DNA from: Chloroflexota bacterium
GTDB taxonomy: Bacteria > Chloroflexota > Dehalococcoidia > Lucifugimonadales > JADFKI01
Direction of reading: 5' to 3'
NCBI GenBank assembly: GCA_009840355.1
Contig: VXNZ01000049.1
Location: 70,768-106,960 of the forward strand
Length of the DNA stretch: 36,193 nucleotides
In this document: one piece after another, positions 3,440 to 36,067 of the stretch
Layout of the letters: every line of letters begins with the position of its first letter
Numbering within the stretch: position 1 is the first letter of the stretch
The notes under the pieces: model-generated
Told to the model about the DNA's origin: nothing
The model's database searches: none
Seen by the model: only the letters and a program-made list of their open reading frames with translations
Translations under genes and position numbers: made by a program

Positions 3440-5256
3440 TTAACTTACATTCTCATCCCAGTCTGTGGGGCCGTCATCGTATTCGTCGATGGTTTCACCA
3501 AGCCAAAACATGCCATCTTCACGAGTTACATTCTTCCCCATGACCGCCTCGATGCTTTTGATGAGTTCCTCGGCGCGTCCTGCGAAAAACCCGTTGAAGT
3601 CGTCCGCGCGCAATGTCGTTGCAGGGATGCGATGGGATGCCAATATCTTGTCCATATCGGCAACTGTTATCTTTGCTTTTCGTTCTATTGTAGGCAGATA
3701 CTCAGAAGGTGCCCTTCCACCAATGCTCCGATTGCAGCTTGCAGAGAGAGCAGTCTTGTTAACGATGCTATTGAATATGTTGCGGTCTATTCCATTCCGG
3801 TTACACCACAATTGCGGAAATATATGGTGTATGTCAATGTTGTCATCGAAGAAGGTCTGAGCCTCAACAGGTTCACCGCTGCAAAAGTCGCGACTGCCAT
3901 CCCGCATGAGCAAAGCGTGGATTCCTTTGTATGCTGCGCTATTGCGAGTCCGTAGAGTAAGTAGGCGGTTCGCTTGGAAGTTCGCGTCTTGAATAGTAGA
4001 GGGCATTTCTGCCCCATCGCCTTTCACCCAACCTGAAACTTCAGGAAGGTCGCGGGCAAACAGTGTTTCACCTGCGCCACCGTAAATCTCCCCCAATACG
4101 CCACACCAATACCAGCGCGCAATCTTTTGGCGAGCGCCTTCCGTATCAGCAACATTTCCCAAATCTGCCAAAATTGTAGCTAGGGGAACAAGTTGGGTCT
4201 GGTATGGCAAATCGCTCGCTTTGAAAATCTTCTGCCCATGCAGAAATCGCGCTGCCTTTTTGAATCCATCTTCTACCTTGTCCGCCCAAGCCTCGTATTC
4301 AGCAGCACTCAGCCGAAGGATGTCTCTTCGCCTGCAACTAACCGCTCCGCCTTTGACTTTGGTCGCAATCAGCGTGAGAGCTTGTAAGAAAAGCGTGCTT
4401 TCCATCCGGCGTAGGACAGGATGAGCGTTTTTCAGGCGACTTTCTCTTTCAGCCCAGTCCTCACGAAGTTGGAAGTTGTCAGCCGCGAAGGATGCGGTCA
4501 GCAGTTCAAATACCGTGAGGGTGACCCCTCCCGTGTTCACCTTCTCAAAGACGATGCAGACAGCTTCCTTCGATGTCTCTTTATCAAGTTCAATTACAGG
4601 GACTTGGTATTGTTTGAAGCCATCGATGACCTGCTCCTCAAATTTGTCCCATAGATCTGATTTACAAGAGTCGTGATTCCAATATTTATTGTAGCCACGC
4701 CTCCACTGCGAAGAGTTAAAGAGGTGTCTGATAGGAAACATGTCATTAGCATATTCCTGTTCAGACGTAGAAAGGTTGGTAATGTCCTCCCCTCGGAATG
4801 TCCTCACTACACGATCTTCGGGAACTGACAGAACGGCGTCCTCTCTATCAGCGTCATCAGAGACGCACTTCTCCATGTCCAAGTAATACCAGCGCCGGAT
4901 TTTGCGCCCTCTGGTATCTTTCGTCTCTACTGGTTTTCCTGCCTTCAAAGATTGGAAGAGTGAAGTCAACCGTTGCTGACCATCTAGCACAAGGACGTCT
5001 GGTTTTACATTCCGAATTGCCTCATCGGCACTTCTATCGGGCGTGGCTTGAAACTGACATCAGGCCCACCAGTTTCCAGCGTCATTACAGCACCGATGGG
5101 AAACGACAGTGAAACGCTGGCTATCAGGTCTCGGATGTGATGGTCATCTCACACCCAGCCACGCTGGAAATCAGGGAGTTGAGTTTTCCCGTTGCTAACG
5201 TTATTCAGCATATCTTCTATGCGAAGTTTGGTACTGTCGAAACTTGCGACATTCAT
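3440..5256 (-). pseudogene. Broken DUF262/DUF1524 (GmrSD-type) restriction-like gene
   Basis: The original gene starts at an ATG at 5254-5256 with GAGG 7 bases upstream and reads MNVASFDSTKL… to LPDFQRGWV. An in-frame TGA at 5149-5151 then stands where the family has Trp (RGWVW). Reading past it gives DDHHIRDLIASVSLSFPIGA, which is clearly still the DUF262 domain. About 40 codons later, near 5029-5032, one base is missing, and the -1 shift moves the reading into the frame carrying LDGQQRLTSL and everything after. From there an uninterrupted 516-codon frame runs to 3440. It includes the C-terminal DUF1524 HNH-like motif (DIHHIFP…NR…N). GmrSD proteins cut glucosylated hydroxymethylcytosine DNA as type IV restriction enzymes; this copy cannot make the full protein unless both changes are sequence errors. 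Re-initiation at a GTG at 4990 would give only a truncated protein. Confidence 0.85.
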
Positions 5257-18351: not shown

Positions 18352-20325
18352 CTACCCCGCCAACACCTTCCGCAAGTCAATGATTTGATCGCGCAGCAGG
18401 GCTGCCTTCTCGAACTCCAGCTCGCGGGAGGCGGCTTTCATTTGCGTTTCCAGGTCTTTGATTAGGCGCGTCAGGTCGTCTTTGGGGATGTCGTCGTGGG
18501 TGATGTATGGCGTTGCTGCCTCTGCGACCGCCTTCACGCGCTCGGTGATGTCGCGCACATCCTTGCGAATGCCTTGCGGCGTGATGCCATGTTCGCGGTT
18601 GTACGCTTCCTGCAACGCGCGCCGCCGTTCCGTCTCGTCGATGGCGCGTTTCATAGAGTCCGTCACCACATCGGCGTACATTATCACGCTGCCTTGTTCG
18701 TGCCGCGCTGCCCTGCCGATGGTCTGCACCAGCGCCGTCAGCGAGCGCAGGTAACCTTCCTTGTCCGCATCCAAAATCGCCACCAAACTCACCTCAGGCA
18801 GGTCGATGCCCTCTCGCAGCAGATTGATGCCCACCACCACATCATAGACGCCCAGCCGCAGGTCGCGCAGTATCTCGCTTCGTTCGAGCGTGTCTATCTC
18901 GGAGTGCAGGTAGTGCACCTTCACGCCCATCTCGCGCAGGTAATCTGCGAGTTCTTCGGACATGCGCTTGGTGAGGGTGGTTATCAGACAGCGCTGCCCC
19001 TTCGCCACACGCTCGCGAATCTGGTACAGCAGATCGTCGATTTGCCCGGCGGTGGGCTTGACTTCGACAACCGGGTCGAGCAGACCTGTCGGGCGGATGA
19101 CCTGCTCTATCATCGCCTGGCTGTGTTCGTGTTCGTATGGTCCCGGCGTTGCGGACACATAGACCGCTTGGTTCAAGTGATCCTCGAATTCTTCAAAGTT
19201 CAGCGGGCGGTTGTCCAGCGCGGACGGTAGGCGAAAGCCGAATTCGACCAGCGTTTCCTTACGCGATTGGTCGCCGCGGAACATGCCGCGAATCTGCGGC
19301 AGCGTCATGTGAGACTCGTCCACGAACAGCAGGTAGTCTTCCGGCAGGTAGTCCATCAGCGTGTACGGCGTGCTGCCCGCCTCGCGCCGTGCCAGATGCC
19401 GCGAGTAGTTTTCCACGCCCGCGCAGTAGCCGGTCTCCTGCATCATCTCGATGTCGTATCGCGTGCGAGACTCCAGCCGCTCCGCTTCTAGCAGCTTGCC
19501 TTGCGACTTCAAGTCTTTGACGCACTGTTCTAACTCGGCTTCGATGTCTTCGATGGCAAGCAGCATCTTTTCCTGCGATGTTACGAAGTGTTTGGCGGGG
19601 AATATCTCGATGTCTTCGCGTTCGCCGAGCAGTTCGCCGGTCAGCGGGTCAACCGTGACGATGCGTTCCACTTCGTCGCCCCAGAACTCGATGCGCACGC
19701 CGAGTTCTTCGTATGCGGGCAGAATTTCCATCGTGTCGCCGCGAACGCGGAAGTTGCCGCGCGCGAAGTCCATGTCGTTGCGCTCGTACTGCATATCGAC
19801 GAGCTGGCGGATGAGCAGTCTGCGGTTGCGCATCTCGCCCTTGCGCACATACGCGACGAAACTCTGATATTCCTCTGGCGACCCCAGACCGAATATGCAC
19901 GACACAGACGCGACGATGAGCGTGTCGCGGCGGGTGAGCAGCGCGCGCGTGGCGGCGTGGCGCAGCTTGTCTAATTCTTCGTTGATATCTGAGTCTTTTT
20001 CGATGTAGGTGTCGGTGCGTGGCACATACGCTTCGGGCTGGTAGTAGTCGTAGTAGCTGACGAAGTATTCGACGGCGTTGTTCGGGAAGAAATCTTGGAA
20101 CTCGGTGGCGAGCTGCGCGGCGAGCGTCTTGTTGTGCACGATGACGAGCGTAGGCCGCTGTGTCTTCTCGATGATATTCGCCATCGTAAAGGTCTTGCCG
20201 CTACCCGTAACGCCAAGCAACGTCTGATGCTTCAGCCCTTCATCAATGCCAGCCACCGCCTTAGTAATAGCCTGCGGCTGGTCACCTGTGGGCTTGAAGT
20301 CAGAAGAAATTTGAAATTCGGGCAT
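18352..20325 (-). CDS. uvrB: Excinuclease ABC subunit UvrB
   Basis: Damage-verifying helicase-like subunit of nucleotide excision repair; it receives DNA from UvrA and recruits UvrC. 657 residues, a normal length. Visible: Walker A GVTGSGKT at 38-45; the beta-hairpin that clamps the strands, [20 protein letters not shown] at 91-110; the DESH Walker B box ([10 protein letters not shown]); the helicase C-terminal motifs (QTIGRAAR); and the C-terminal UVR domain that binds UvrC ([14 protein letters not shown]). GGGAGG lies 4-5 bases before the ATG. Separated from mfd by the plus-strand DUF5679 gene and a MITE-like repeat, so the two repair genes are neighbours but not an operon. A TATAAT on the minus strand (20426-20431) may be its -10; no matching -35 or LexA box is clear. 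Confidence 0.98.
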
Positions 20326-20471: not shown

Positions 20472-20551
20472 ATCGCACAGATAAATCATGATTGTCGTTC
20501 ATTTGAGAGCATTCTACGGCAACGGTAACTACTGAAGATATCCGAAGCGCG

Positions 20552-21286
20552 TTGCTGGCAAATCCTCAAATCATCGTGGATTTGCTGGACAGCGATCCAG
20601 CCATCTTGGAGATGGTGCGCTCTCGCGTACTTACTCCCGAACTGCTGGCACTGCCGGAATTGCACGCGCAGTTAGCGGCTGAAGTGCGCGAATTCGCAGC
20701 TGAGATGCGCGAGTTCGCCGCGAAGACTGACGCTCGCCTGAGTAAAGTGGAGGATGAAATCGTCGTAATGCGCGGTGATATAGACAGGATGAGCGGCAAG
20801 ATAGACAGGACGGAATCGAGCGTTGGACACCTGAAAGGCTTCTTTGTAGAAACCACCGCGCGAAACAAGGAAGATTCCATCGCTCTTCAGGTAGGTGAAC
20901 AGAATGGATTGAGATTTCTGTTTCACACGCTCCAACCCGTTCGCAGAAGTGAACGGCGGACATTCATGCAGGTTATGCGAAATGACGAGCTGCCGCCTCC
21001 CGGATTGAGCGATGGCGAAATCGTAAGCTTCGTACAAGCCGACCACATTATATCCATAGACGACAGCAGCAGCGGCAAAACATACATCGCGATAGAGGCT
21101 TCGTACGTAGGCGACACCCGGGGCGCACAACGCGCCGTACGAAACGCGAATATTATCAATGTGCTGACTGGCGCGAACTCATACGCAGTTGTAGCCGGAT
21201 GCCATTCTACCGACGGGCTTTTTGAAATGGCGGAGCGCGGCGAAGTAATCTGGCATCTAGTACCAGTGGATGAATTGAACGCATAA
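20552..21286 (+). CDS. Coiled-coil protein with PD-(D/E)XK-nuclease-like C-terminus
   Basis: 244 residues from a TTG. The frame is open back to 20507 without an ATG or GTG, and the upstream residues (TTEDIRSAL) look like natural protein, so the true start may be earlier and is uncertain. Residues about 37-100 are a coiled coil (LAAEVREFAAEMREFAAKTDARLSKVEDE…). The C-terminal half contains ADHIISIDD followed by YIAIEAS and a long helix with RAVRNANIINVLTG, then strands (YAVVAGC, EVIWHLVP). The D…x…E-A-S spacing resembles the catalytic core of DUF3782-type PD-(D/E)XK proteins, which are abundant in filamentous bacteria and Chloroflexota. No enzymatic activity can be claimed. It is alone between divergent uvrB and the CoxE fragment. 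Confidence 0.72.
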   Translation: MLANPQIIVDLLDSDPAILEMVRSRVLTPELLALPELHAQLAAEVREFAAEMREFAAKTDARLSKVEDEIVVMRGDIDRMSGKIDRTESSVGHLKGFFVETTARNKEDSIALQVGEQNGLRFLFHTLQPVRRSERRTFMQVMRNDELPPPGLSDGEIVSFVQADHIISIDDSSSGKTYIAIEASYVGDTRGAQRAVRNANIINVLTGANSYAVVAGCHSTDGLFEMAERGEVIWHLVPVDELNA

Positions 21287-21301
21287 ATCTCTGTGCCGTC
21301 C

Positions 21302-21409
21302 TCACCGCAGTAGCGCAGGCAGACGCTTTAGGCTCTCCACATCCCTCGCCGAAGGGTGATAATCGATGTGCGGCGGCGGGGCTTGCAGGCTGCGCGGCTT
21401 TGCATCTGC
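21302..21409 (-). pseudogene. C-terminal fragment of a second CoxE-like VWA gene
   Basis: On the minus strand the last 29 codons before a TGA at 21302-21304 read SLQAPPPHIDYHPSARDVES… to KRLPALLR. The intact CoxE-like protein 1 kb away ends SLQAALPHIDHHASARDVES… with the same last residues. That is 25 of 29 residues identical, and most DNA differences are at third codon positions. Similarity fades upstream at about 21409; the rest of this copy is missing and no start is present. It is the remnant of a paralog, or of a 3' end copied during rearrangement. Confidence 0.8.
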
Positions 21410-21428
21410 GCTGCAAATCTGTGAGCGA

Positions 21429-22127
21429 CTAATTCCACTCCCGCACACGGTCTATCCGCCAATACCTGTGCGAAACCTCATTCGCCGGGTGCTCGTATGC
21501 CAGCACGCCTTCCAGCGGTCGGACACTTGAGACACGGAAATATAGAGTTATCCTATTTAGACTGGCGCCTTCCTCCATTGGCAGAGATGTGGGCCCCACT
21601 AGGGGGAATGCCTCATCCTCCACTAAAATGCTCCAGAACGAGAATTTTGCGCAGTCGCCGCCGTAATATGTCGCCAGAGTGTCTTGAGATTCCCACGGAC
21701 ACATAGAAGTATTGACAGACCCGTGTTTGCGGGTGCCATTGTACAGATTTACGTCGACTGCGACGACGCTTTCACCCGCTCCGGGCCTTGCCCATTCAGG
21801 CAGTTCTTTCACCTCGGAATGCTTCCTGATTACGGCAGCGCTGATGACCGCAATTTCTATGCCATCCGCGAACGGGAGCCGCGCGTTAACCGGCGCTGCT
21901 TGTATCGGTCGAGAGCCTGCGCCTTCAATGGGCTCGAATGTGTCCCGGGGGTCGAAGCGTTCCAAGTATGCCATGCGCGATTCCAAGTCGGATGCGTGCG
22001 TCTCCATCGCGGTTATCTGTGCCTGAAGCTCGGCGACCTGTTCCGTCAATTCCGCAAGCGGATCAGTCGCCGCGATTAGCGCTATCGCCGCCATCAGTAC
22101 AGCTACTATGCCGATTATCTTTTTCAT
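21429..22127 (-). CDS. Membrane-anchored or secreted coiled-coil protein, function unknown
   Basis: 232 residues from the ATG at 22125-22127; the frame extends to 22205 but the hydrophobic N-terminus begins here (MKKIIGIVAVLMAAIALIAA), with AAAGG about 10 bases upstream. Residues 1-22 are a signal peptide or anchor without a lipobox Cys. Residues about 26-60 are a coiled coil (LTEQVAELQAQITAMETHASDLESRM). The rest is a beta-rich domain (IEIAVISAAVIR, ESVVAVDVNLYN, ITLYFRVSS) reminiscent of DUF4352-like extracytoplasmic domains, with two Cys (in SMCPW and GDCAKF) that could form a disulfide. It lies exactly between the CoxE fragment and the intact CoxE gene, so it may have arrived with that rearrangement. 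No family assigned. Confidence 0.75.
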   Translation of the reverse strand: MKKIIGIVAVLMAAIALIAATDPLAELTEQVAELQAQITAMETHASDLESRMAYLERFDPRDTFEPIEGAGSRPIQAAPVNARLPFADGIEIAVISAAVIRKHSEVKELPEWARPGAGESVVAVDVNLYNGTRKHGSVNTSMCPWESQDTLATYYGGDCAKFSFWSILVEDEAFPLVGPTSLPMEEGASLNRITLYFRVSSVRPLEGVLAYEHPANEVSHRYWRIDRVREWN

Positions 22128-22364
22128 ATGTACGAAGCCTTTCGCTATATCTGCTTCCACCAACAGCGTTAAGCCGTCATCTATCCGTAGCCACGTTTTC
22201 AGCAAACTAATTTATCCTGAAACCGTACTGAACATGCTAGGTTAGGCTTAGCAAATCTCGGGCAATACGACGACATCATTTGCGACAGGTTCGTACTTGA
22301 TGGAAATGACACATTTATTCGCCTGTGACAATTAACCCTATGGCAATCAGCATTGAGGCGCGCG

Positions 22365-23507
22365 TCACCGTAGTAAGGCTGGCAGGCGCTTTAGGCTCTC
22401 AACATCGCGGGCTGAGGCGTGGTGATCTATGTGGGGGAGGGCGGCTTGAAGGCTTCGGGTTAGTGGCTGGTAATCTTCGCTGCCTAGCAGCGGGTTGAGC
22501 CAGACTACGCGGTGCACGCGCCGACGCATGCGCTGCACTTCTCGGGACAGACGCTCCGGGTCGCCTGTGTCCCAGCCGTCGCTTAACAGGAAGACCGTCG
22601 TGTAGCGGCTGAGAATCTGCTCGTATCTTGTGTTCACCAGTGCAAGCGCCTCGCCTATGCGCGTGCCACCGGACCAGTGCCTCGCTGCGCGTCCGATGCC
22701 TGCCAGCGCCTCGCTGAACGACGGCGCGTTGAGTTCACGCGTAACCCGCGTCGCCGATGTGCTGAACACGAACGCCTCCACGCGCTTGGTGTGCTGCGAC
22801 ACGGCGAATATGAGCTGCAAGAGCAGTTGCACATGCCGCTCCATCGAGCCGCTGACATCGAGCATTACCAGCAAGCGCGGCGTTCTGGGCACGCGGCGTT
22901 TGCGCGGCAGCACGATGGCGTCGCCGCCGCTGCTCATATTCAGACGCATCGCGGCGCGCAGGTCCGGGCTGCCTTTGCGCCGGTGTCGCTTACGTCTGCG
23001 TCCGGGCCGAGACGCCATCGCGCGTATCATTCGCGCGGCGATGGCTGACAACTCGGAAAGTTCATCAGCACGCAGCACGCTTAGGTCGGGCGGCGATGCG
23101 GTTGCGCGGCGACTCGCGCCTGTGCGCAGCATCTGCACCAGCGTGTTTTGCGACGAATCGTCGGCTTCGGGCATCATCGCGACGCTGGGCGTTCGGCGGA
23201 ACTCGCGCGCGCCGCCAACTAGGTCGTCGTCTGAGTCGATGTGCGGGCGTAGTGGTAATTCCTCGAAGTTCCAGAATAGCTCGAACAGCGAGTCGTAGAT
23301 GGGGATTTCGTCTCGGCGCGAGAGCAGCAGCGCGCGCAACGACCAGTACACCCTGCCACGGTCCATCATGTCCACCGCGCTTAGCGCGCGCATTACATCC
23401 GCCGTCTCCTGCGGGCTAATCAGCAGCCCGTGTGTGCGCAGCACCCGGCAAAAGTGCGTAAGGTGTGTCGTAAAGTCATAGGAAACAGGCTTTGTCATTT
23501 GTTTCAC
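22365..23507 (-). CDS. CoxE-like VWA-domain protein
   Basis: 380 residues from a GTG at 23505-23507, or 377 from an ATG at 23496-23498; neither has a clear ribosome site. The N-terminal half (about 1-160) is the helical region typical of CoxE proteins. A basic patch (PGRRRKRHRRKGS) lies at 168-180. The VWA domain follows, with an intact metal-ion-dependent adhesion site: D217-V-S219-G-S221, the Thr in GGTRIG, and the Asp in LLSDGWDTGD. CoxE works with a MoxR-type AAA ATPase (CoxD) in maturation of Mo-containing CO dehydrogenase and related complexes. Here no MoxR gene or dehydrogenase subunits adjoin it, so it is an orphan copy. A fragment of a paralog lies at 21302-21409. Confidence 0.9.
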   Translation of the reverse strand: MKQMTKPVSYDFTTHLTHFCRVLRTHGLLISPQETADVMRALSAVDMMDRGRVYWSLRALLLSRRDEIPIYDSLFELFWNFEELPLRPHIDSDDDLVGGAREFRRTPSVAMMPEADDSSQNTLVQMLRTGASRRATASPPDLSVLRADELSELSAIAARMIRAMASRPGRRRKRHRRKGSPDLRAAMRLNMSSGGDAIVLPRKRRVPRTPRLLVMLDVSGSMERHVQLLLQLIFAVSQHTKRVEAFVFSTSATRVTRELNAPSFSEALAGIGRAARHWSGGTRIGEALALVNTRYEQILSRYTTVFLLSDGWDTGDPERLSREVQRMRRRVHRVVWLNPLLGSEDYQPLTRSLQAALPHIDHHASARDVESLKRLPALLR

Positions 23508-25974: not shown

Positions 25975-27615
25975 CTATTCCATGCGGGAGCCGCCCCAGG
26001 CTCGGGAGACACCGGCTGCCGTTGGTTCGACTATTACGTTGACTACGGCGGGCTTGCCGCTGGCGAAGGCTCGTTCGAGCGCAGGGCGAATCTCGTCCGG
26101 GTCGGTTACCTCTTCGCCGTATGCTCCGAGTTCGCGCGCCATGCCGTCGTAGTTCGTAAATCCGAGCTCGCGGCCAGGCTTGCGGCGGTCGGGCGTGCGC
26201 GCCGTCCAACCGGCGTTGTTGCTGATGACCGTAACGACCGGCAGATTGAAGCGTACGCAGGTGTCGATTTCCATCGCGTTCATGCCCATCGAGCCGTCGC
26301 CGTGCAGCACTAGCACCTGCTTGTCCGGCTTGGCAATCTGCGCGCCGATACCATAAGGCAGCCCGACTCCCATCGTGCCCGTTACGCCGGAGTTGAGGCG
26401 ATGACCCGGCACGTATGTCGGCAAAGACTGACGACCGAAGTGCAAAATCTCATTGCCGTCAACGCAAAGGATGGCGTCGCGGTCTAGGAAGTCGCGGATC
26501 TCCTTGCACAGGCGTAGCGGGTGAATTGGCGTCTGGTCGGAGTTCAGCAGGGCCGCTTGCTGACCAGCGCGGCGGTCGTTGTCCTCTTGCAGCCGCGAAA
26601 TCCACGGCGATTCCAGCCTGCCGGCGAAGTCTTCGGGCCTGGCTTCGATTTCCGCGTTCATCTGTCCGAGAATGGACTTCGCATCGCCGACGATTCCGAG
26701 GTCAACATCGCGGTTGTGCGCGATTTCGCTCGCCTCGATGTCTATCTGCACGACTTTGGCGTTACCGAAGCGCTGGCCGTAGTTGATCATCCAGTTCATC
26801 CGTGTGCCGATGACCATCACGAGGTCGGCTTCTCGCAGCGCGGTGCTGCGCGCTCCTTGGAACGATACGGCATGGTCTTCCGGCACAACGCCGCGCGACA
26901 TCGGCGCGGTGTAGAATGGCGTGCTTGTCATGTCAACCAGCCGTTCCATCTCGGGTGCCGCGCCGGAGAAGAACACGCCGCCGCCGGAGAATATGACCGG
27001 ACGCTCGGCATCCGCCAGCATTTGCACAGCTTCGGAGATGGCAGCCGGATCGCCGGACGGCACGGACTTGCGAGCCGCGCGCGTGGGCTTTACCGCCGCG
27101 TCCTCTTCAATCTCTTCGTACAACACATCCGCGCCGCAGTCGATATAGACGGGACCGGGCCTGCCGGACATGGACTGGCGGTACGCGGTGCTGACGATTT
27201 CCGGATAGCGCGCCGCCATTGTCGGGCGGTGCCAATACTTGACGATAGGCTCCATGATGCGCTCTTGGTCCACCTCTTGGAAGGTGTCCCTGCCGATTTC
27301 GTGAACCGCGCTCGCGCCGCCGAGGATGACCATAGGCGAGCAGTCGATGGAAGCGGCATACACGCCGGTGAGTAAGTTAAGCGTGCCGGGACCGGACGCC
27401 GCGGTGCAGACGCCGGGCTTGCCGGTAACGCGGGAGTATGCGTGCGCCGCGAATGCTGCCGCCTGTTCGTGTCGGAAGTCGATGGTTTCGATGCCGAAGT
27501 CCTGACAGCCCATCACGATGTCGAAGTCAGGTCCTCCCATAAGGTAGAAGAGCTTCTCCACGCCCTCTTCTTTGAGCGTCTTTGCTATGAGATAGCTGCC
27601 GGTAACCTTTGCCAT
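25975..27615 (-). CDS. ThDP-dependent lyase or carboligase, acetolactate-synthase-like
   Basis: 546 residues. The three-domain layout of the pyruvate oxidase/acetolactate synthase family is clear. The PYR domain (about 1-170) has catalytic E50 in RHEQAAAFAAHAYSR; the central domain (about 190-330) has ADLVMVIGTRM; the PP domain (about 360-546) has the ThDP/Mg motif GDGS…SNN and the upstream NSGVTGTMGVGLPYGIGA segment. The Gly-rich PP entry and lack of a regulatory-subunit gene nearby argue against biosynthetic acetolactate synthase. Closer relatives by eye are 2-hydroxyacyl-CoA lyase, oxalyl-CoA decarboxylase and benzaldehyde-lyase-type enzymes. AAGGAG lies 7 bases before the ATG. It is a single-gene unit with its own strong terminator. 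The substrate is not deducible. Confidence 0.88.
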   Translation of the reverse strand: MAKVTGSYLIAKTLKEEGVEKLFYLMGGPDFDIVMGCQDFGIETIDFRHEQAAAFAAHAYSRVTGKPGVCTAASGPGTLNLLTGVYAASIDCSPMVILGGASAVHEIGRDTFQEVDQERIMEPIVKYWHRPTMAARYPEIVSTAYRQSMSGRPGPVYIDCGADVLYEEIEEDAAVKPTRAARKSVPSGDPAAISEAVQMLADAERPVIFSGGGVFFSGAAPEMERLVDMTSTPFYTAPMSRGVVPEDHAVSFQGARSTALREADLVMVIGTRMNWMINYGQRFGNAKVVQIDIEASEIAHNRDVDLGIVGDAKSILGQMNAEIEARPEDFAGRLESPWISRLQEDNDRRAGQQAALLNSDQTPIHPLRLCKEIRDFLDRDAILCVDGNEILHFGRQSLPTYVPGHRLNSGVTGTMGVGLPYGIGAQIAKPDKQVLVLHGDGSMGMNAMEIDTCVRFNLPVVTVISNNAGWTARTPDRRKPGRELGFTNYDGMARELGAYGEEVTDPDEIRPALERAFASGKPAVVNVIVEPTAAGVSRAWGGSRME

Positions 27616-27871: not shown

Positions 27872-29815
27872 ATGAATGTCGACAATATACTATCGTCTAT
27901 TGATCAAGGGTTCATTCTGCTTCCCGTCTTCCAAAGAGGATATGTCTGGAATCGCAATCAAGTTCGCTTCCTGATGGACTCGCTATACCACAAATATCCT
28001 GTAGGCAGTTTGCTCATGTGGCAAGCGCACTCTGAAAGTGTCGATAATCGAGGAGATGTTCCTGCTGCGGCCTCCCCGGTTAAACTGATCTTGGACGGAC
28101 AGCAGCGCATAACTACACTATATGGCATTATCAAGGGTAAGCAGCCGCCTTTTTTTGAAGGCAACTCCAACACATTCACCGGTCTGTATTTTAACCTAGA
28201 AACTGAAGTGTTCGAGTTCTACGCTCCCTCTCGTATGAACAATAACCCGTTCTGGGTGAATGTCACCGAACTGATGCAAAACGGCATTGGTCCTATGGTG
28301 GATAACATCTTTCAGAATGAAAGACTGAAAGAGCAGGCACAAACATACGTGAACAGGTTGAATGCAGTTACCACAATTGGCTCGATAGACCTATACGAAG
28401 ACATAGTGTCAGAATCTGACGTGGATGTAGTAGTGGACATATTCAACCGCATCAACAGCGGCGGCACGAAATTGTCGCAAGCCGACTTAGCATTAGCCAA
28501 GATTTGCACGATTTGGCCTGAAGCTCGTGACGAACTGAAACTACGGTTAGCTAAATGGAAGGAAGCAGGGTTTCATTTCAAACTGGAATGGCTGCTCAGG
28601 TGCTTGAACGCTCTGGTAACTGGAGAAGCCAGATTCTCGGAGATAACCGACAAAAGCGCAGATGAAATTAACGCAGGGTTGTCCAAAACCGAGAAACACA
28701 TTGATTACTTGCTAAATCTCATATCGTCTCGACTTGGACTCGACCACACACGAGTTCTTGCTGGACCGTATGCGTTTCCGGTGATGACAAGATACTTGGA
28801 GCAGCGAGGAGGTCATCTGACGGATTATAAGGAGGCAAATAAACTGCTGTTCTGGTACATCCATACATTCCTGTGGGGACGGTACTCAGGATCCACGGAA
28901 TCTGCCTTAGGTCAAGACCTCAACGCAATAGAAGATACCGATACGGGATTGGATAATCTCATAGAGAATCTGCGTATTATTCGCGGACATTTGCGGATTG
29001 CGCCCGACGACTTCTCAGCATCTACCATAGGCGCACGCTTCTATCCGATGCTATACATGCTTACGCGCGTGAACCATGCAAGAGACTGGGGAACAGGCAA
29101 TGAACTATCCAATGCGATGCTTGGAAAGAGCACTGGCCTTGAAATGCACCACATATTCCCTAAGTCGAGGCTGTATGAACGAGGCTACTCTCGAAATGAG
29201 GTCAACGCGCTCGCCAATTTCACATTTCTAACGAAAGAGACGAACCTTGAGGTGTCTAACAAGTATCCTGAGAAATACATTCCAGAGTATGCCGAAAAGC
29301 ATCCCGGCGCAGTAGAATCGCACTGGATACCTATGGATGGCGAGCTTCATCGGATTGATAGATACCAAGATTTTCTGGAGGCAAGGCGGAGGTTGTTGGC
29401 GGAGGCTACGAATAAATTCTTGGACAATCTCCTAGAAAGCGCTGTCTCACTCCCAACACCCATAGGAGAAATGTTATCAGACATAGGCAGCCTACCGGGC
29501 GGTGTGGTCAGCGACGAGGAACAACGACAACTGGAGAATGTGAATGGGCGAGTGGTTGCGATGGGATTGTCCGAAGGTGAATTCAGTTACGAGTTAATTA
29601 ACGAACGCACTGATCAACCTATGGCAATGATAGATTTGGCATGGCCTGATGGGTTGCAGGCGGGATTGAGCCAACCTGTGGCGCTACTCATTGATGAAGA
29701 CACACCAGTTGAGACAATTGTCAGTCAAGCGGGATTCCGAATCTATACTGACGTTGAATCGCTGATGGACTATGTCTCGCAAGACGTGCTGGTGCTTGAT
29801 GTTGCTGCGGACTAA
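27872..29815 (+). CDS. DUF262/DUF1524 protein, GmrSD-type modification-dependent nuclease
   Basis: 647 residues, intact. The N-terminal DUF262 (GmrS-like) domain has LPVFQRGYVW at 17-26 and the DGQQR motif at 75-79, thought to bind NTP; FNRINSGGTKLS lies further on. The DUF1524 (GmrD-like) HNH-type nuclease motif H426-H427-IFP is followed by the Asn residues of NALANFTFLTKETNLEVSNK. About 90 C-terminal residues are an extra domain (MAMIDLAWPDGLQ…VALLIDED…GFRIYTDVESLMDYV), a beta-alpha module I cannot name. GmrSD cuts DNA with modified cytosines, protecting against phage, and single-chain fusions are the usual form. AAGGA precedes the ATG by 10-11 bases. No methylase or other defence gene adjoins it. 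Base composition is lower in GC than that of the neighbours, suggesting transfer. Confidence 0.9.
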   Translation: MNVDNILSSIDQGFILLPVFQRGYVWNRNQVRFLMDSLYHKYPVGSLLMWQAHSESVDNRGDVPAAASPVKLILDGQQRITTLYGIIKGKQPPFFEGNSNTFTGLYFNLETEVFEFYAPSRMNNNPFWVNVTELMQNGIGPMVDNIFQNERLKEQAQTYVNRLNAVTTIGSIDLYEDIVSESDVDVVVDIFNRINSGGTKLSQADLALAKICTIWPEARDELKLRLAKWKEAGFHFKLEWLLRCLNALVTGEARFSEITDKSADEINAGLSKTEKHIDYLLNLISSRLGLDHTRVLAGPYAFPVMTRYLEQRGGHLTDYKEANKLLFWYIHTFLWGRYSGSTESALGQDLNAIEDTDTGLDNLIENLRIIRGHLRIAPDDFSASTIGARFYPMLYMLTRVNHARDWGTGNELSNAMLGKSTGLEMHHIFPKSRLYERGYSRNEVNALANFTFLTKETNLEVSNKYPEKYIPEYAEKHPGAVESHWIPMDGELHRIDRYQDFLEARRRLLAEATNKFLDNLLESAVSLPTPIGEMLSDIGSLPGGVVSDEEQRQLENVNGRVVAMGLSEGEFSYELINERTDQPMAMIDLAWPDGLQAGLSQPVALLIDEDTPVETIVSQAGFRIYTDVESLMDYVSQDVLVLDVAAD

Positions 29816-35170: not shown

Positions 35171-36067
35171 ATGACAACTCCGAACATCGAGACAAAGTTG
35201 ACTGCGCAGACGAATGGCGCACAGGGCGATGTCGTGCAGACGCAGCCGCCGGACGCAGGCGAAGTGCCGTGGTACGAACTCATCAATGACGCGCCGGAGC
35301 CACCAGAGGACGCGATGCAGCAAGCAAGTACGATTCTCTATGTTATGTCCATACTCTGGGGGCGATACGAGGATGACCGAGCCGTGCTTGTGTCTGAGCA
35401 GACCAATGTTATCTACGACTCGGCCGTTCCCGGTTCTGTTATTGTTCCAGACGGATATGTGGTTTTCGACGTGCCCGCCAGGATGATTGAGTCGGAGCGT
35501 CGCAGCTACCGCATAGACGAATGGGGCAAGCCGCCGGACTTCGTGCTAGAGGTGGCTTCCGAAAGTACGGCTGCGCGAGACTTAAGTGAAAAGCGCGAGA
35601 TTTACGCGCGGATGGGCGTTCAGGAATACTGGAAACTTGACAAGCACGGCTACTATGGTGAGCCGCTTGTGGGCGAGCGCTTGGTGAACGGCGAATATAA
35701 CCGATTTGAGCTGCACACCGAGTCCAACGGCGAGGTATGGTCGCGCAGTGAAGTCCTAGGCGTGGACTTTTATCATCGATTAGAGGATGGCATAAGCACT
35801 TTCTCGCTGTGGGACAGCGTTACGGGAGAGAGGCTGAAGACTCCGGGCGAGGAGGTTGCGGCGCGGCAAGCGGCAGAGGCATGGGCGCAAGATGAGCGGC
35901 AGATGCGTCAGGAAGCGGAGGCGCGAGCGCAGGACGCCGAATCGCGAGCACAGGACGCCGAATCGCGAGCGCAAGGTGCCGAATCGCGAGCCCAAAGTTC
36001 TGAGGCGGCAAGACTGGCTGCCGAGGCAGAGATAGAACGCTTGCGGCGGCAGCTCCACGGGCGGTGA
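35171..36067 (+). CDS. Uma2-family (DUF820) PD-(D/E)XK endonuclease-like protein with coiled-coil tail
   Basis: 298 residues. Residues about 30-215 carry the Uma2 core: V-P93-D94-G with following strand YVVFDV, the catalytic strand PPDFVLE127VASEST, and K141 in DLSEKREIYARMGVQEYW. The C-terminal 70 residues are a highly charged coiled coil with four near-identical heptads (RAQDAES, RAQDAES, RAQGAES, RAQSSEA). AGAGG lies about 7 bases before the ATG. Members are numerous in cyanobacteria and Chloroflexota, and their cellular targets are mostly unknown. It stands alone, 222 bases after the NHL gene. The catalytic residues look complete. Confidence 0.92.
   Translation: MTTPNIETKLTAQTNGAQGDVVQTQPPDAGEVPWYELINDAPEPPEDAMQQASTILYVMSILWGRYEDDRAVLVSEQTNVIYDSAVPGSVIVPDGYVVFDVPARMIESERRSYRIDEWGKPPDFVLEVASESTAARDLSEKREIYARMGVQEYWKLDKHGYYGEPLVGERLVNGEYNRFELHTESNGEVWSRSEVLGVDFYHRLEDGISTFSLWDSVTGERLKTPGEEVAARQAAEAWAQDERQMRQEAEARAQDAESRAQDAESRAQGAESRAQSSEAARLAAEAEIERLRRQLHGR
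35922..36005 (+). repeat. Four tandem 21-base repeats inside the Uma2-type gene
   Basis: Units at 35922-35942, 35943-35963, 35964-35984 and 35985-36005 share CGCGAGC and, in the first three, GCCGAAT ends. Each encodes one heptad of the coiled coil. Divergence grows toward the 3' end. In-frame gain or loss of units would change coiled-coil length by 7 residues without breaking the gene. Confidence 0.8.

Follow-up and report, generated by a model that had tools for sequence, protein, structure and literature searches.

The 3' end of a coxE-like gene occurs twice in the window (the whole 36,193-nt stretch of DNA that was analysed), and a further gene lies between the two copies. This raises the question of how a gene comes to have a second end without a second beginning, i.e. 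whether the extra tail is what remains of an old paralog, the product of an insertion that rebuilt the gene end, or the stranded end of another allele. The features concerned, together with the counterpart of the extra tail in a congener (G002), are as follows.

18352..20325, minus strand: uvrB, the conserved next gene, which defines the site
20552..21286, plus strand: cc, a coiled-coil gene, convergent with the remnant and 15 bp from the remnant's stop
21302..21394, minus strand: coxE tail remnant, read here as the probable orphaned 3' end of a coxE allele; 30 codons and the stop, without a start, apparently decaying
21429..22127, minus strand: mem, 232 aa, with a hydrophobic N-terminus, a coiled coil and then a predicted beta-strand part; ortholog only in G002
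22365..23507, minus strand: coxE-like VWA gene, intact, 380 aa (PF05762, E = 3.2e-51)
L024:8524-8634 in G002: counterpart of the remnant, longer at its 5' end, with one single-base deletion and one single-base insertion compared with coxE

The repeated coxE end and its neighbours

The initial annotation held that the last 29 codons of coxE are repeated, with 25 of 29 residues identical and the stop included, and the translations agree. Aligning 21290-21420 with the end of coxE, as it had suggested, yields a gapless direct repeat of 93 nt on the same strand (21302-21394 and 22365-22457, ~1 kb apart) with 76% DNA identity. When the same segment is searched against the window's own genome, the matches are itself and the coxE end (E = 4.2e-13), while a search with the CoxE protein recovers 21305-21403 on the minus strand (82% identity, residues 346-380, E = 8.7e-9). 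Additionally, a 17-nt motif taken from both copies has 2 occurrences in the window, vs. 0.02 expected. The duplicated coxE 3' end is confirmed as a real observation.

The gene between the copies, mem, also looks real, as originally proposed: its G002 ortholog is 92% identical and the dN/dS is 0.19, a ratio that points to a gene under selection. The corresponding value for cc against G002 is 0.24. The presence of mem is restricted to the window's genome and G002, both among 60 relatives (2 of 60) and among 250 genomes of the order (2 of 250); it is found in 1 of 393 genomes of the class, the window's own, in a sample that may have been without G002, and it was not found in viral contigs, plasmids, or phages. 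The cc gene is a member of a loose family that is matched in 9 of the 60 relatives, the next best (33%) being in the congener G003 and away from this site, and at the coxE-uvrB site it is restricted to the window and G002. Neither mem nor cc matches a Pfam family at 1e-3 (weak coiled-coil matches appear at looser limits only) or a defence family (PADLOC), and no solved structural relative was found for either; the predicted structure models have a mean pLDDT of 40 (mem) and 44 (cc).

Regarding the start of cc, the ATG that could begin this gene in G002 is ACG in the window (20516-20518), so that TTG 20552 or a different codon would need to serve as the start of the reading frame. Elsewhere in the window, two genes with a GmrSD_N domain (3440-4990 and 27872-29815) have a flatter third-position composition than their neighbours, and 21-nt direct repeats are present at 35909-35992, near the 3' end of a Uma2-family gene.

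The intact CoxE matches VWA_CoxE (PF05762) with 174.3 bits, vs. a curated cut-off of 26.4, and is 84-95% identical to the coxE product of four congeners. Its gene is accompanied by uvrB, a permease-family gene, and a thiamine-diphosphate enzyme gene. The initial annotation had noted that the usual MoxR partner is missing here, which stands: no AAA_3 (MoxR) match is located on the window's contig, and the three present in the genome are on contigs C5, C19, and C33. The same is seen in relatives. Among the stronger AAA_3 matches listed for 24 genomes that carry coxE, many of them on short contigs, none is less than 80 kb from coxE on the same contig, with the nearest being about 88 kb away (G029), and the ORFs flanking coxE that were tested in relatives belong to families other than MoxR. 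A coxE without a MoxR partner is thus usual in these relatives, and its absence is no sign of damage at the window's coxE. The CoxE of the CO dehydrogenase cox cluster, as described in PMC4240915, has the CoxE-type VWA domain (PF05762) in common with the window's protein; unlike in that cluster, the window's coxE has no cox cluster or CoxD/MoxR-type ATPase alongside.

Two further observations concern this gene. Between the window and G002, the dS of coxE is 0.43, compared with 0.18 for uvrB, 0.21 for mem, and 0.23 for the thiamine-diphosphate enzyme gene (25975-27615), a hint that coxE alleles may have been exchanged after the two lineages split. The middle of the coxE-mem spacer (about 22175-22320) looks by eye better conserved than its ends in the same comparison, and is possibly a promoter or an RNA.

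The coxE-uvrB site in related genomes

The order coxE-mem-remnant-cc is the same in G002 as in the window. In that genome, uvrB is on a separate contig that ends after 136 nt matching the window's uvrB-cc spacer with 91% identity. As this layout is found in two separate assemblies whose CoxE are 5% apart, an assembly artefact is unlikely.

Other congeners have a near-empty site. The gap between the coxE stop and the uvrB start is 88 bp in G001 and 317 bp in G003, and neither contains a second tail or an ortholog of mem or cc; the locus without the 21429-22127 gene, which the initial annotation had proposed to look for, is therefore found in both. The interval is filled differently in further genomes: for example, it measures 5.3 kb in G004, with other, mostly small ORFs, and about 2.8 kb in G006 and G007, the latter with a Na+/H+ exchanger-type gene. 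The differing intervals in G003, G004, G006, and G007 indicate that this spot is variable and changes in other ways too.

The initial annotation had also proposed to look in relatives for two tandem full-length coxE genes. A CoxE match is present in 87 of 250 genomes of the order, and among the candidates listed for these (up to seven scored in some genomes), no place has two full-length adjacent copies. Several partial cases were rejected. The extra coxE end in G042 is the same gene on both sides of a scaffold gap of N, the lone tail in G011 (L038:8777-9052) looks by eye like a coxE that has lost its interior, with start and end retained in one ORF, and the partial matches in G163, G053, G190, and G249 do not include a full-length adjacent second copy.

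Origin and decay of the remnant

The remnant differs from the intact tail of the window at 22 of 90 sites, distributed as 5/1/16 over the three codon positions (dN 0.081, dS saturated; the Ka/Ks comparison that had been suggested at the outset). This third-position bias indicates that the copies diverged mainly as working genes, both being constrained for most of the time since their separation. We find that the remnant is closer to the coxE of congeners, i.e. 16, 18, and 18 of 90 sites differ from G001, G003, and G004, respectively. Considering both remnants (window and G002), these distances are 16-19 of 90, vs. 22-26 from the intact copy in the respective genome, and the tails of the three congeners differ from one another at 14, 16, and 20 sites. 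Of 5000 codon bootstraps, 99.5% put the remnants closer to G001/G003/G004 than to the intact coxE with which they share a genome; in 90% they are nearer to these three than the intact window and G002 copies are, and in 38% they are as near to them as the three are to one another. Informative sites are few here (90-111). In the AU test (111 columns), grouping the remnants with G001 (P = 0.42) or with G001 and G004 (P = 0.37) is compatible with the data, as is a clade that contains just the five intact genes (P = 0.28), while a tree uniting the remnants with the intact window and G002 copies is 5.74 log units worse, at a marginal P = 0.047 that is uncorrected for the several groups compared.

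The remnant also decays. Its recognisable 5' homology has been lost in the window, and the G002 copy keeps about 20 nt more, upstream of which the sequence is no more coxE-like than shuffles. Between the two remnants, 11 of 89 sites differ (3/2/6 over codon positions; dN/dS 0.40, from 11 changes), whereas the intact coxE tails of the same pair of genomes show 12 differences over 111 sites, all at third positions (0/0/12). Positions 1 and 2 vs. position 3 are therefore split 5:6 in the remnants and 0:12 in the intact tails (Fisher P = 0.014). Compared with the whole coxE gene (27:92) the P-value is 0.14, and as such the indels are no less important than the counts as evidence for a loss of selection. 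From the two indels in the G002 copy and the 3/2/6 spread, the remnant appears to be dead and now without detectable selection.

How well do the possible origins account for these data? The initial annotation preferred an old paralog, first under protein-level selection and subsequently deprived of its 5' part. In such a scenario, an ancestral tandem duplication would have given a second, working coxE that diverged and then shed its 5' portion, and mem would have originated or inserted between the two. The selection it saw did act during most of the divergence, and the third-position bias agrees with this, as does the compatible clade of five intact genes without the remnants; however, such selection fits an allele of another lineage equally, and is not specific to a paralog. 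The remainder of that proposal fares less well, since the remnant is not under selection now and no second full-length copy is present among the candidates listed from the 250 genomes of the order. A paralog that predates the genus should also be farther away, but the remnants are as near to the three congeners as those are to one another, and a duplication in the stem of the window and G002 is disfavoured by the AU test. Finally, a paralog leaves no trace in the 88 bp of G001 and the 317 bp of G003, and clean losses in other species would be needed. We consider the old paralog unlikely, and less likely than a congener allele.

A recent duplication of coxE's own 3' end on the spot, by replication slippage or strand-switch copying, followed by decay, would agree with the arrangement of the copies as direct repeats about 1 kb apart. 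Such a decaying copy should be nearest to its parent, but the remnant is nearer to G001 (16 of 90) than to the window's intact tail (22 of 90), which argues against a recent local copy, and the differences are concentrated at third positions. This origin is quite improbable. Even less credible is site-specific integration at the coxE 3' end that rebuilds the gene end, as islands do at tRNA genes and some protein genes. The initial annotation had noted a resemblance to an insertion that restores a gene end and held that an empty site with one copy would favour insertion, which the near-empty sites in G001 and G003 do, and the restored gene end, the 3' fragment at the far side, and the extra genes between are all expected of site-specific integration. 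By contrast, the repeats are 76% alike over 93 nt with no identical core, the insert between them is <1 kb and holds one gene with no integrase match, and cc, itself outside the repeats, shares the restriction to the window and G002 at this site. With copies that differ to this extent, and with no integrase or recombinase match in either mem or cc (Pfam; PADLOC), the locus does not look like site-specific integration.

The remnant resembles one more species of the genus, and the simplest explanation is that it is an allele of another lineage. Specifically, we propose that one-sided illegitimate recombination probably (about 0.62) left behind the orphaned 3' end of a second coxE allele that stems from the same genus, and that it moved mem, cc, or both as well.

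A probable one-sided exchange and its meaning

According to this proposal, DNA of a congener would have joined the uvrB-coxE region in the ancestor shared by the window species and G002, with homology at one side and an illegitimate joint at the other. The incoming piece may have been coxE-mem, in which case the resident tail would have been pushed aside, or tail-cc, joined beyond mem. In either case, one full coxE would survive and a second tail would be stranded between the new genes mem and cc, where it would have decayed since, without function. With a lineage-specific gene on either side of the remnant, more than one event is possible. A donor with coxE-mem or coxE-cc was not found among the relatives, the genomes of the order and class, viral contigs, plasmids, or phages.

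As to which tail is foreign and which is native, gene trees, codon make-up, and sliding comparisons point to neither. The coxE, uvrB, J, and mfd trees are near-star and place the window lineage inconsistently, a codon likelihood test favours neither side for the window remnant and finds the G002 remnant only slightly G001-like, and sliding third-position ratios along coxE present no step at the 3' end. The proposed exchange resembles xenologous gene displacement in situ, in that coxE was possibly replaced in place by the allele of a relative; it differs in that part of one allele persists as a fragment, and the intact coxE is only a candidate for being foreign.

Homology-facilitated illegitimate recombination has been put forward as the source of orphaned immunity genes and displaced 3' ends at type VI effector and Rhs loci (PMC5361080), and in E. 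coli such recombination is described as rare but documented (PMC3240628). Like the loci presented in PMC5361080, the coxE site has an intact gene, then new genes, then a displaced 3' end that is probably that of another allele, and its copies appear not to cluster with the intact allele of their own genome. Unlike them, CoxE is no polymorphic toxin and has a conserved C-terminus, and its site has one orphan end and no immunity-like gene; neither gene trees nor codon make-up indicate a homologous anchor there. A more speculative extension, which we regard as doubtful, is that the coxE-uvrB junction stacks congener segments, with orphaned 3' ends of a non-toxin gene recording successive imports in the manner of type VI immunity-gene arrays.

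Overall, the second coxE tail is a real but ordinary recombination scar in a sponge-type SAR202 lineage, i.e. a new instance of a known process, and it alters nothing about CoxE function. Third-position bias in a gene fragment does not by itself point to an old paralog or to a conserved gene, as the fragment can also be a stranded allele. For these uncultured SAR202-type bacteria, the remnant represents a small, datable scar of DNA exchange among them.
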